A stretch of 48,052 bases of DNA from Solirubrobacterales bacterium (GTDB taxonomy: Bacteria > Actinomycetota > Thermoleophilia > Solirubrobacterales > Solirubrobacteraceae), in contig PLES01000109.1 of NCBI GenBank assembly GCA_003137075.1, forward strand, positions 1 to 48,052. The letters run 5' to 3'. Position numbers and translations under genes: made by a program. Shown piece after piece: positions 3,227-47,302 of this stretch. The first letter of the stretch is position 1. Each line of letters starts with the position of its first letter. The notes under the pieces are model-generated. The model ran no database searches. It was given only the letters and a program-made list of their open reading frames with translations, and was not told where the DNA came from.

Positions 3227-3982
3227 TTAACCTCCGTGACGGATCGCCGAGATCTGCCCGAGGTCGGTTATCGCCAGGGAGTCAGCCGGTGCGTTGAAGG
3301 CCAGGTGCTCACCCCATCGGGTGAAGGCGATCACAAGCTTGGTGTCGCCCTTGAGCGTTGCGGTCGCGGCGATCGGCAGCGGGGTCGCTGAGCGCGACAC
3401 GTACAACGTGATCGAGCCGGAACCAGTCGTCTGAGCGTTCGCGGTACCGCTGATACCGATTGCGGACGTTCGGCCGATCTTCGTCGGGCGGGTCAGGGTC
3501 AGATGCCCAAGCGGCGTCACCTCCTGCAGCGCTGAAGCGAGCGTGACGTCGGAAGCGACCGAGGCGTACTTGGAATCGGTTAGGGGGATCTCAACCCAAC
3601 TGTTGCCAATCTGCTCGGCGATGCTCGCTGAGAAGCCGTACCCGGACGTCAGCGCCTTCTGGTTCGCCTTCAGGTAGGCAGTGCCGTTTACAACCAGGAT
3701 CTTCGTGCGAAGCCCGTTTGAGCTGTCGATCGTCTGGCTCCCGGAGTCCAGCGCAACGTTGTCCTCGTAGCTGGCCACCGCGATCGCGGTCGAGTGGCCG
3801 ATTTCGGTCTCGTGTACGGAACCCTGCGCGTGAGCATCGCTCAGTGCTGTGCGGAGCAGCGTGGTGGCGGCGCTCGGCGCTGCTCTTTGTGCGGCGATCG
3901 CAGCCACAGGGGCGGCAACGGTGGCGGACAGCAACAACAGGCCGACTGTCCCGCATCCGTGTCCAAGTCGTCGCTTCGCCAC
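3227..3982 (-). CDS. Secreted hypothetical protein, possibly LppX/LprG-like
   Basis: A mature domain of about 215 aa follows a signal peptide (basic start, GTVGLLLLSATVAAPVAAIA core). The GTG at 3982 puts this signal at the N-terminus. A longer reading from GTG 4084 adds 34 residues without a recognisable role. The body alternates strands and polar turns (DGLRTKILVVNGTAYLK-like pattern, a central helix ASIAEQIGNSWVEIPL, then a second sheet ending in ITDLGQISAI). This resembles the curved-sheet fold of actinobacterial LppX/LprG proteins that carry lipids, but there is no lipobox Cys at the cleavage site, so it would be secreted rather than lipid-anchored. It converges on the LamG gene with a 64-nt gap. 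The fold assignment is weak. Confidence 0.7.
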   Translation of the reverse strand: MAKRRLGHGCGTVGLLLLSATVAAPVAAIAAQRAAPSAATTLLRTALSDAHAQGSVHETEIGHSTAIAVASYEDNVALDSGSQTIDSSNGLRTKILVVNGTAYLKANQKALTSGYGFSASIAEQIGNSWVEIPLTDSKYASVASDVTLASALQEVTPLGHLTLTRPTKIGRTSAIGISGTANAQTTGSGSITLYVSRSATPLPIAATATLKGDTKLVIAFTRWGEHLAFNAPADSLAITDLGQISAIRHGG

Positions 3983-4109
3983 TCCCGGATTATCGGCCTT
4001 GCCGGCGGACTTACGCAAAGGGTGGAGAGCCCCATCGCTGCGAGCTCCCCACCCAGGCCACCGGGCCACCGGGGCACCTTGCACGACCGAGCTTCCGTGC
4101 AGCTACTGC

Positions 4110-44381: not shown

Positions 44382-44412
44382 TACCGCTAAAGGGATTCGA
44401 ACCCGGGCTACC
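44382..44412 (-). other. tRNA T-arm-like fragment
   Basis: On the minus strand GGGTTCGAATCCC (44392-44404) has the loop TTCGAAT with only three good stem pairs, followed by TTTAGCGGTAC. There is no anticodon arm or acceptor stem, so it is not a working tRNA. It may be the remnant of an old integration at a tRNA end, or chance. Confidence 0.3.
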
Positions 44413-45259
44413 TCCTCCAGAGTTTCAGCTCGTAGTAGTCCTCAGTCGAGACCCGCTGGAAACCGAGCGACAGATAGAGCCCGAGCGCGCGCTCGTTGTC
44501 GACCGAAACCTCGAGCCCCACGCTGGTCGCACCGGCGTCAAAGAGCTCGCCGGTGACACGCCTTAGGACGTCACGACCGATACCGAGGCCGCGCAGTTCG
44601 GGCTTTATCGTGAACCCGTAGACGCCGCCGCGAACTCCTTCAAGCGTCAGCCGCACGCTACCCACGATTGCTCCGCCGAGCTCCACCACCACGGTCCGTT
44701 CGCGACCGATGCGGTCGAACTCGTGCGGGTGGGCCGGGTGCCCGAAGCCGGCGACGAGCAGCTCAGATAGCTCCTCGAAGTCGTCCCGGGTCGCGGCTCT
44801 GGTGCTGATTCGCGGATCAGTGGGACCCTCCGCCGGGCGCTGCTTCAAGACCAGCGCATGCTCTGAGTGCTCAAGCACCGCGCCGCGGTCAAGTGCAAAC
44901 GCGCGACCGGCTGCCGTCTGCCCTGGGACCACCAGCAACACGTGCCCGACTCCCTGCGCGACGCAGCTTGGCAGGGCAGCTTCCAGCAGCGCCGTGGCGA
45001 TGCCTCGGCGGCGGGCATCCGGCGCGACCATCCCGGCGATTTCAATCGTGCCACTGCCGAACGCGTAGAGGCCGAGAAATCCGATCGGCTGGTCGTCCTC
45101 CAGCCAGAGGAAGTCTCGGGTCGCGTCGCGTGGCCGGTCGCGCAGGACCCCCCACTCCAGCTTCAGCCGGCCGCCGTCAGCGCTGACCACGCGTGATTCC
45201 AGCGTGGCCAGCGCATCTAGTTGCCGGCGTGACAGTTGTTGTGTCGGTACTACAGCCAT
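44408..45259 (-). CDS. Tandem GNAT acetyltransferase
   Basis: A 283-aa protein with two GNAT domains (about 5-135 and 150-283). Acetyl-CoA motifs are DARRRGIATALLEAA in the first half and PELRGLGIGRDVLRRV in the second. The double-domain layout is that of mycothiol synthase MshD, but the catalytic residues cannot be checked here, so that activity is only a possibility. It overlaps the upstream 65-aa ORF by 10 nt. Confidence 0.9.
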   Translation of the reverse strand: MAVVPTQQLSRRQLDALATLESRVVSADGGRLKLEWGVLRDRPRDATRDFLWLEDDQPIGFLGLYAFGSGTIEIAGMVAPDARRRGIATALLEAALPSCVAQGVGHVLLVVPGQTAAGRAFALDRGAVLEHSEHALVLKQRPAEGPTDPRISTRAATRDDFEELSELLVAGFGHPAHPHEFDRIGRERTVVVELGGAIVGSVRLTLEGVRGGVYGFTIKPELRGLGIGRDVLRRVTGELFDAGATSVGLEVSVDNERALGLYLSLGFQRVSTEDYYELKLWRR

Positions 45260-45447
45260 GGTCCCCGACCGGCACGGTACCGACGCCGGTGGTCTGCACG
45301 TATCTGTTCCATGCGGGTGACCATCTCAGCCGAGTGCTTGCGCTGCCAAACGACCCATGCCAGCGTCGCCGAGAGGCTCGGTCGGCGCAGGCGTGATCTC
45401 GGTCTCTGGCTGTGTGCCGCACTCATCAACATTGAGCGGCTTAACAT
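45250..45447 (-). CDS. Small basic ORF (65 aa) coupled to the GNAT gene
   Basis: The family is not recognised. AAAGGAG lies 7 nt before ATG 45447, a strong ribosome site. The stop overlaps the GNAT start by 10 nt. The product is Arg-rich (RRPSLSATLAWVVWQ, ending RRRYRAGRGPWL) and has no signal peptide. Codon use in the first 20 codons is less typical than later, so it may serve mainly as a translation-coupling leader. 45448-45699 contains no other gene that I can support. Confidence 0.45.
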   Translation of the reverse strand: MLSRSMLMSAAHSQRPRSRLRRPSLSATLAWVVWQRKHSAEMVTRMEQIRADHRRRYRAGRGPWL

Positions 45448-45642
45448 CCTGAAACTCCTTTTACGGTGACTGTTTTGTGGCAGGCGTCACCGCACGCGGT
45501 TTGCGTGGGTTACTGCCACTTTTGTGAGTGAGTGGTGTCGCGCTGAGCGCCGTTACCTGCGCCGGCTCAGCGTCACTTCGGTGTAGCTGTCATGTGTCAC
45601 TCCGGATCTTTGGCCTTGTCGTTCTGAAGCTCGTTTGGGAAC

Positions 45643-45670
45643 AAAAAAAGGGCGGCCCTCAGGGCCGCCC
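45643..45670 (-). terminator. Rho-independent terminator for the 43-aa peptide gene
   Basis: GGGCGGCCC-TCA-GGGCCGCCC is a perfect 9-bp stem with a 3-nt loop. On the minus strand it is followed by a run of seven T. It lies 30 nt after the peptide stop. Confidence 0.85.
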
Positions 45671-45699
45671 TCGCTCTACCGGTGTATGCACGCTGGTTA

Positions 45700-45831
45700 T
45701 CAGCGCACGCACCCCTTGGCGAGGGCATAGGTCTCCGCGTTCACTGCACCGGCCACGGGCGCGACAAAGCGCGCCACCTCGAGTGGCTGTGCTGCAGTGA
45801 TGGAAGTGATGTGGGCGAGCGTGAGTGTCAT
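45700..45831 (-). CDS. 43-aa peptide gene with its own promoter and terminator
   Basis: A short gene too small for ordinary ORF screens. The product begins MTLTLAHITSITAAQPLEVA and ends NAETYALAKGCVR, with one Cys near the end. The ribosome site GGGGAGG is 8 nt before ATG 45831. A promoter lies at 45866-45894 and a terminator follows 30 nt after the stop, so a discrete transcript is likely. The family is not recognised. It could be a regulatory or signalling peptide, or a modified-peptide precursor, but no maturation gene is recognised nearby. Codon use is GC-rich and coding-like. Confidence 0.65.
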   Translation of the reverse strand: MTLTLAHITSITAAQPLEVARFVAPVAGAVNAETYALAKGCVR

Positions 45832-45865
45832 TGAAATAACCTCCCCTGAGTGGGGACTGAGGGGC

Positions 45866-45894
45866 AGACTAACCGACTCACTGACTCAACGCAA
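45866..45894 (-). promoter_or_regulatory. Promoter of the 43-aa peptide gene, with TGACTC repeats
   Basis: On the minus strand TTGCGT (45894-45889) and TAGTCT (45871-45866) are separated by exactly 17 nt. The spacer contains GAGTCA twice (45883-45888 and 45875-45880 on the plus strand as GACTCA). A third TGACTC lies at 45916. The leader then has CCCC-ACTCA-GGGG, which could pair with the ribosome site. Confidence 0.6.
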
Positions 45895-45931
45895 GTGATT
45901 TGAGTGAAACTTTTGTGACTCGTGGCTGGCG

Positions 45932-47302
45932 TCAGCGAGAGCGCGCTTTGGTGACCCGGATGACTACCGGCCCGCCACTCGGATCGACCGCGCTGACCCA
46001 CTTGGTGCCTAGCGATGCGGAGCGTCCGGGCATCACCCGCGGCAGTCGGGCGGATCCGAGCGCGCGTGTGTCCTGTGAGATCGCGATGCGGGCGTCGATC
46101 AGCTCTTCGCGGGCGCGCAGCAGGTAGTGCCCACGCGGCGGCGCGGCCGGTGGCTCGCCGGCTCGATCGCCGGCGAAGGCCGGCGCTATCTCAATCGCAC
46201 CCGGTGAGACCCAATGCAGCGGCGCCGCGCACTCAATCGGGACAAAGGCGCGCGGCCAGCGTTCGCCGCCCAGAAAGTCCGCGACCTTACCGGCGACATG
46301 ACGGCCGCAGAGCGCCGCCACATCGGCGGTTTCGGCTCCATGTAGGACGTTCCCGGCGGCGAACAGGCCAGCGCGGGCGGTGCGCAGCGCGCCGTCGACG
46401 CGTGGCCCCCTAGTGCCGATGTCCAGCACCAAGCCGGCGCTGACCGCGAGTTCGTGGTCAGGGATCCAATCGCCGGTGAAGATCACGGTGTCGCACTCAA
46501 TCAGGCGACTCTGGCCGCGCGTCAGGTCAAGCACGGTGACGCCGGTGACCCGCTCGCTGCCGTGGATCTCCGTCACCGCGGTCCGTGTCAGCACCCGCAG
46601 CGGTGTCACCGGCAGCGCCGTCCGAGAGTTCGACACCGTGCCATAGCGAGCTGCGGCGCCCCAGCGGAAGGCCGCGTACGACTGGTGACGCGGCAGCTCG
46701 GTCGTGATCGCGACCGTCCTGGCGCCGCCGTGCGCGAGCGTCGCCACCGCGGAGAAGGCCACGTGCTCAGCTCCGACCACCACGGCACGGGTTCCGGGGC
46801 TCTGCTCGTTGAGGTAGACGAGCTGCTGCAGTGTCCCGGTTGTCATGACTCCAGCGGGCCGCGATCCGGCGACCATGCGTGCCGAGCGCGGACGCTCACG
46901 GCAGCCACTCGCCAGCACGACCGCACGTGCATATAGATGCGCGACGGCGCCCGGCGAGGTCAGCTCCAGGGCGCCGTCCGCAGACCAGCCTGTCACCTGG
47001 GTGCGAAGCCGCAGATCAGCCCCCGCCGATGCAGCCGCATCAGTCAGTTTCTCGGCGTAGTCCGGTCCGCTCAGACTCGTGTGCAGGTCGCGTAGCCCGT
47101 AGCCCTGATGGAAGGCGTGGCGCGGAATCCCGCCGGCCTGCCGCTCGCGCTCGAGCACCACCACCTTCGCCTCCGGCGACAGCTTGCGCAGGCGCGCGGC
47201 CGCGGTCAGGCCCGCCGGTCCGGCCCCGATGATGGCGACGTCGGCGCTCTCTTGGGGCTTCGCCAGCGGCGCCTGCGCGACCTGCTCCCAGCGCTCGCTC
47301 AT
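45932..47302 (-). CDS. FAD/NAD(P)-dependent oxidoreductase (GlpB/HcnB-like)
   Basis: A 456-aa flavoprotein with the FAD-binding GAGPAGLTAA (26-35) and an ASGCRERPRSARMVAGSRPAGVMT segment, followed by the NAD-binding VVVGAEHVAFSAVATLAHGGA. This is the layout of the HcnB/OoxA or GlpB-type subunit that pairs with a DAO-type partner. Its start overlaps the upstream gene by 4 nt, so the two work together. Its substrate (glycerol-3-phosphate, an opine or an amino acid) is not clear. Confidence 0.88.
   Translation of the reverse strand: MSERWEQVAQAPLAKPQESADVAIIGAGPAGLTAAARLRKLSPEAKVVVLERERQAGGIPRHAFHQGYGLRDLHTSLSGPDYAEKLTDAAASAGADLRLRTQVTGWSADGALELTSPGAVAHLYARAVVLASGCRERPRSARMVAGSRPAGVMTTGTLQQLVYLNEQSPGTRAVVVGAEHVAFSAVATLAHGGARTVAITTELPRHQSYAAFRWGAAARYGTVSNSRTALPVTPLRVLTRTAVTEIHGSERVTGVTVLDLTRGQSRLIECDTVIFTGDWIPDHELAVSAGLVLDIGTRGPRVDGALRTARAGLFAAGNVLHGAETADVAALCGRHVAGKVADFLGGERWPRAFVPIECAAPLHWVSPGAIEIAPAFAGDRAGEPPAAPPRGHYLLRAREELIDARIAISQDTRALGSARLPRVMPGRSASLGTKWVSAVDPSGGPVVIRVTKARSR

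Follow-up and report, generated by a model that had tools for sequence, protein, structure and literature searches.

What does a short, isolated open reading frame (ORF) do when it has its own promoter, ribosome-binding site and terminator and encodes a peptide that resembles no known family? The question is raised by a unit on the minus strand of a 48,052-nucleotide stretch of DNA from a Solirubrobacterales bacterium (contig PLES01000109.1; hereafter the window), which a first-pass annotation had described as a discrete 43-amino-acid (aa) peptide gene. Given that its promoter, the position of its stop codon and the pairing of its last codons with bases of the terminator are conserved, and that the encoded peptide is little constrained, we propose, with a probability of about 0.74, that this 43-codon ORF serves as the leader (upstream ORF or uORF) of a ribosome-mediated transcription attenuator.

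Layout and conservation of the proposed leader unit

All parts of the unit are on the minus strand. The promoter (45866-45894) combines a -35 element TTGCGT (45894-45889) and a -10 element TAGTCT (45871-45866) across the 17-nucleotide spacer that the first-pass annotation had pointed out. Although a strict sigma-70 consensus scan of the stretch found no promoter, this site ranks first among 96,046 positions on both strands when scored with a weight matrix built from 24 promoters at the equivalent loci of relatives, the window being left out. These promoters were chosen by eye at each locus, with the exclusion of genome G073, which has no clear match; together with that of the window, all 25 have a 17-nucleotide spacer and a TTG(C/T)NN -35 element, and 24 have a TANNNT -10 element. 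The start codon follows the promoter by 34 nucleotides, and the previously noted ribosome site GGGGAGG (45840-45846) lies 8 nucleotides 5' of the ATG. The ORF itself (45700-45831) encodes the 43 residues MTLTLAHITSITAAQPLEVARFVAPVAGAVNAETYALAKGCVR and ends with TGA at 45702-45700. It is followed by an intrinsic terminator (45642-45672), also present in the relatives, with a stem at 45672-45648 (nine of 11 pairs are GC) and a tail of seven T residues reaching 45642; it is the strongest of three terminator-like sites in the stretch, against 0.9 in shuffles. The compact unit, missed by length cut-offs, is therefore real, as had been claimed: although an ORF of this length would be unremarkable as a chance occurrence, the conservation of the full layout across species is not.

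The peptide has no Pfam or NCBIfam match, consistent with the earlier remark that it lies outside recognised families, and the leader as a whole has no match in Rfam at gathering or permissive thresholds. A tblastn search with the 43-aa sequence against 146 genomes of the family and phages, the check suggested for conservation of the frame, recovered chance matches only; the best-looking ones from the same genus (L009, L028) lie inside another gene, by eye one for a gas-vesicle-type protein. After this failure of the protein search the first relatives were found in the DNA upstream of same-genus orthologues of a GNAT acetyltransferase gene (described below): in G077 and G074 the unit encodes a quite different peptide and has a nearly identical 3' end. 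A DNA pattern for this 3' end occurs exactly once in each of seven of the 146 genomes scanned (G000, G074, G077, G078, G081, G082 and the Solirubrobacter G135), and control patterns have zero matches in any of them.

Covariance models built from those seven sequences (R1) and from 21 sequences (R2) extended the set: strong copies, each with promoter, ORF and terminator, turned up in another seven genomes of the genus and in the majority of those of the Solirubrobacter group, as well as in single genomes of two other genera and in three additional families of the class. In all, no fewer than 27 other genomes of the class, from four families, carry the unit, almost always as one copy per genome. 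In all 28 sequences the leader ORF has an ATG start, spans 20-50 codons and ends with TGA or TAG at one structural position. In Solirubrobacter it encodes 21 aa and starts about 10 nucleotides past the -10 box, and is therefore probably leaderless. With R2, matches that score under about 40 bits often prove to be ordinary terminators, and so does one of 43.7 bits (terminator-type matches: L073, L124, L136). We also set aside a Novosphingobium match (38 bits), in which an unrelated-looking short ORF precedes a terminator. Novosphingobium beihaiensis has two related short ORFs (L102:3568-3728 and 3853-4000; ends FALTLA and FAITLA); a terminator comes after each of them, and they score on the model yet look unrelated.

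Pairing of the proposed leader ORF with the terminator

Comparison of the aligned sequences revealed a stem, P1, that joins translated sequence to the terminator. Its 5' strand, CCCTCGC (45719-45725), lies within the last eight codons of the uORF and, as CCCUCGC, pairs with GCGAGGG (45668-45674) at the foot of the terminator hairpin. The GGG closing P1 is shared with the terminator stem, where it forms the 5' base; hence the full P1 and the full terminator are mutually exclusive. A further hairpin, P2/P3 (45684-45712), holds the stop codon, and across the relatives P3 holds or abuts it and keeps its pairing while the sequence changes. In an alignment built without structure 95.7% of the P1 cells are paired, as against 38-69% after a slide of 1-3 nucleotides. 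Over 28 sequences P1 pairs at 188 of 196 positions, a value reached by none of 5000 between-species re-pairings (mean 182.8). Covarying forms include CCCUUGC/GCAAGGG (G075), CCCUCGU/ACGAGGG (G133, G138, G300) and CCUUCGC/GCGAAGG (G322), and changes on both sides are seen in the separate lineages of G075, Solirubrobacter, G300, G322 and G392. Moreover, the P1 strand starts 23 nucleotides 5' of the stop codon in nearly all species (26 in G087 and Solirubrobacter, which have one extra codon). As this distance is fixed regardless of ORF length, the position of the stop matters.

Over the set as a whole, partition-function folding is in keeping with a ribosome-dependent choice between the two structures, although in the window the terminator prevails in every state. 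When a modelled ribosome covers the P1 strand or the stop codon, the mean terminator probability is 0.98 or 0.95, respectively; without a ribosome it is 0.55, with P1 at 0.44 and dominant in about a dozen species. These observations suggest a mechanism in which ribosomes reaching the end of the uORF would occupy its last codons (the 5' strand of P1) and the stop codon in P3, thereby blocking P1, leaving the GGG free and allowing the terminator to fold, so that transcription would end after about 220 nucleotides. If initiation fails, or if ribosomes stall early in the uORF owing to an antibiotic or a shortage of charged transfer RNA (tRNA) or of ribosomes, P1-P2-P3 would fold first as a long imperfect hairpin, with a head start because it is transcribed ahead of the 3' half of the terminator. 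It would then capture the GGG and let RNA polymerase continue into the downstream genes. By analogy with the attenuators discussed below, the inducer might be a ribosome-targeting antibiotic or a general failure of translation.

Several points weigh against this proposal. The P1 signal is largely one of invariance rather than covariation, and the re-pairing test overstates its significance, the species being related. Without a ribosome the window RNA still has a terminator probability of 0.95-1.00 in equilibrium folding, the terminator dominating every state; switching in the window would therefore need co-transcriptional kinetics. The ratio of non-synonymous to synonymous substitution rates (dN/dS) gives no firm proof that the leader ORF is translated, and the downstream genes vary by lineage and lie 200-300 nucleotides away.

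The same data bear on three other explanations. That the ORF encodes a functional small peptide as an independent gene, and that its terminator is an ordinary one, would fit its good ribosome-binding site, its GC-rich third positions (0.67-0.91), the open frame in 28 genomes, with N-termini that are weakly alike (HIT / HKLNV), and a dN/dS of 0.22-0.28 in the pair G063/G070 (small counts). However, other close pairs have dN/dS values of about 0.7-1.7 (0.73-1.7 within the closest trio), and the two closest Solirubrobacter pairs show non-synonymous changes only and zero synonymous ones (small counts), so that the synonymous/non-synonymous comparison proposed in the first-pass annotation reveals little coding constraint. 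The peptide ranges from 20 to 50 aa and shows hardly any constraint beyond the codons of P1 and P2; the last codons, L-A-x-R-C-x-R-stop, are the sole conserved part, and L-A-x-R-C is explicable by RNA pairing because CUCGC-NNN-AGG-UGC spells it in that frame. The lone cysteine near the C-terminus, correctly noted for the window peptide, has a counterpart in many relatives, not in all. Since a peptide gene would also leave the covarying pairing between coding and terminator bases unexplained, we consider it very unlikely: the transcription unit of the earlier description stands, but dN/dS and the RNA pairing favour an attenuator leader over a functional peptide.

A stand-alone regulatory small RNA (sRNA), possibly with a dual function, whose 3' hairpins act in trans, the ORF being of secondary importance and the downstream genes being transcribed from promoters of their own, would account for the strong promoter and terminator that delimit an RNA of about 220 nucleotides, for its occurrence mostly as one copy per genome and for a conserved structure next to inconstant downstream genes. 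Yet we regard it as nearly as unlikely, given an in-frame ORF in every case, a stop codon fixed relative to P1, the terminator bases shared by P1 and the recurrent location ahead of operons or tRNA arrays. Nor is there a similar promoter downstream: in the interval from the terminator to the 65-aa ORF that follows (see below) the best weight-matrix rank is 1786, which agrees with read-through and is compatible with the use of another sigma factor. An amino-acid-specific attenuator of the trp/his/ilv/cys type, in which stalling at late codons such as those for Arg or Cys senses charged tRNA, could be read into the recurrent C-terminal L-A-x-R-C-x-R and the placement of the Solirubrobacter copies ahead of tRNA-Arg(GCG). 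Against it, none of the 28 leader peptides has a run of one amino acid's codons, several species have other residues in place of the Cys and Arg (EMLLH, DGWRT, EDLQR), and the codons that are conserved belong to P1 and P2, for which RNA constraint suffices; this is the least probable of the three. A general attenuator leader is thus our preferred reading, and by the same token other isolated small transcription units whose peptides are unconserved may likewise be leaders and not genes for peptides.

Downstream genes and tRNA arrays

In the window, read-through would reach three ORFs on the minus strand: a mini-ORF encoding MTATPK (45573-45593) after the sequence CCGGAG, a basic small protein of 65 aa (45250-45447) with the Shine-Dalgarno sequence AAAGGAG, and, overlapping the stop codon of the latter with its start, a tandem-GNAT acetyltransferase of 283 aa (44408-45259; Pfam Acetyltransf_1, 1.7e-27). 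Basic proteins of about 57-67 aa are encoded behind the leader in the window's genus, where counterparts have 23-34% identity, and in G087; the 65-aa protein has no Pfam, NCBIfam or PADLOC match. The tandem-GNAT gene is often coupled to them and is syntenic with the leader in G073, G074, G077, G078, G081 and G082, and in the window's lineage the attenuated operon probably ends with it. We rejected it as a constant partner, since it lies elsewhere in G079, G063 and G070, and only its first codons are left in G075. In G078 the leader is separated from the small-protein gene by one that, by eye, is transposase-like (484 aa; L051:1725-3179). Short ORFs of 6-8 codons with a Shine-Dalgarno sequence are also found directly after the terminator in L032, L066 and L075 (MNKHTRRA, MNAHRIRT and MNAIYTRC, each followed by a stop), and those of tRNA-array loci are of the MLSLKK type; the post-terminator mini-ORF is possibly a second leader. 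On the upstream side, the unit lies downstream of a gene for a flavin adenine dinucleotide (FAD)-dependent oxidoreductase (45932-47302), a link to which was rejected because this neighbourhood is unconserved. An A-rich stretch 5' of the promoter, GTCACAAAAGT (45909-45919, minus strand), might be an UP-like element: similar stretches occur at the equivalent place in G082, G087 and G079, and the count of such motifs across the window shows no excess over chance.

A different set of genes follows the leader in many relatives. Beyond the terminator, G058, G208, G264, G300, G322, G341 and G380 have a mini-ORF (mostly ATG CTC AGC TTG AAG ...), a conserved RNA-like sequence, GAGGCCCCGCCTGAGAGAGAA ... 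GATCCAGGGTCGAAGGGTAGGCGAGTGGC, and tRNA genes, of which there are one to nine within the stretch examined; G020, of the same family as G058 and the window, has this layout less clearly. The conserved sequence lies between attenuator and tRNA array at L131:1610-1985, L122:1625-1910, L135:1615-1905, L132:1605-1790 and L068:1620-1850 and, on the minus strand, at L130:310-635 and L134:1190-1500. It has no Rfam match, and the exact matches of its 21-nucleotide core GAGGCCCCGCCTGAGAGAGAA in 249 genomes of the class are all directly behind the leader. Two-mismatch matches in G332 and G368 were discarded, as they are not adjacent to a leader. This RNA was not found in the window's genome. In viral contigs the motif is absent, and three weak matches to the leader pattern are without tRNAs. 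The Solirubrobacter leader precedes tRNA-Arg(GCG), and in G134 also tRNA-Asp. A TROVE/Ro60-like gene, recognised by eye, lies farther downstream in G134 and G135; this arrangement is seen at L050:522-2582 (minus strand) and in L094. The idea of a Y RNA, based on the proximity of leader and TROVE-type gene, was dropped because the other lineages examined have no such neighbour and the adjoining tRNA is a normal tRNA-Arg.

Where the conserved, previously undescribed RNA and a tRNA array follow the leader, read-through would extend into both. It is quite possible, though less likely than not, that the leader is a class-wide translation-stress switch, in which a uORF attenuator governs tRNA arrays and a structured RNA so as to supply extra tRNA when translation falters, and which the window's lineage re-used for a basic protein and an acetyltransferase. 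On the attenuator reading, an orphan small ORF becomes a testable regulatory device, widespread in a class of soil bacteria that has been little studied, and tRNA arrays and an undescribed RNA become its candidate targets. The putative link to these targets would be the most novel element of the system.

Comparison with known attenuators

Attenuators based on uORFs are mainly known upstream of resistance and amino-acid genes, and an open-access literature search returned no report of one in this class or before tRNA arrays. Leader peptides of the ilvBNC/trp type share with the present unit a short leader ORF coupled to alternative hairpins, but they have codon runs for the controlled pathway, whereas here there are none and the peptide sequence is unconserved. 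The logic proposed here has been demonstrated experimentally in three other systems. In the wblC/whiB7 system of mycobacteria and Streptomyces full translation of the uORF favours an intrinsic terminator and failed translation an antiterminator (PMC11550727). The Actinomycetota background, a uORF and an intrinsic terminator are common to both, and so, on the reading proposed here, would be this terminator/antiterminator logic, but whiB7/wblC controls a WhiB transcription factor, and here the leader precedes a small basic protein and a GNAT enzyme, or an RNA and tRNA arrays. Neither the 65-aa ORF nor the GNAT gene of the window has a WhiB match, and nothing found here, where the two leaders were not tested for homology, links them. 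The proposed logic also resembles that of Streptomyces lincolnensis lmrC, whose uORF overlaps a terminator and has to be translated for termination (PMC8546547), but which controls an ABCF resistance ATPase, and class-wide conservation is not described in that study. In Sinorhizobium meliloti, an alphaproteobacterium, a DUF1127 small-protein gene is preceded by a 29-aa uORF whose start-codon mutation causes derepression, and is induced by tetracycline (PMC12218461). It shares with our unit the uORF and a downstream small protein (Arg-rich there, basic here, the 65-aa protein having no DUF1127 match), but lacks an intrinsic terminator, for which its authors suggest Rho; the present unit has one. 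The type of device is already known, and the variant proposed here would be new.
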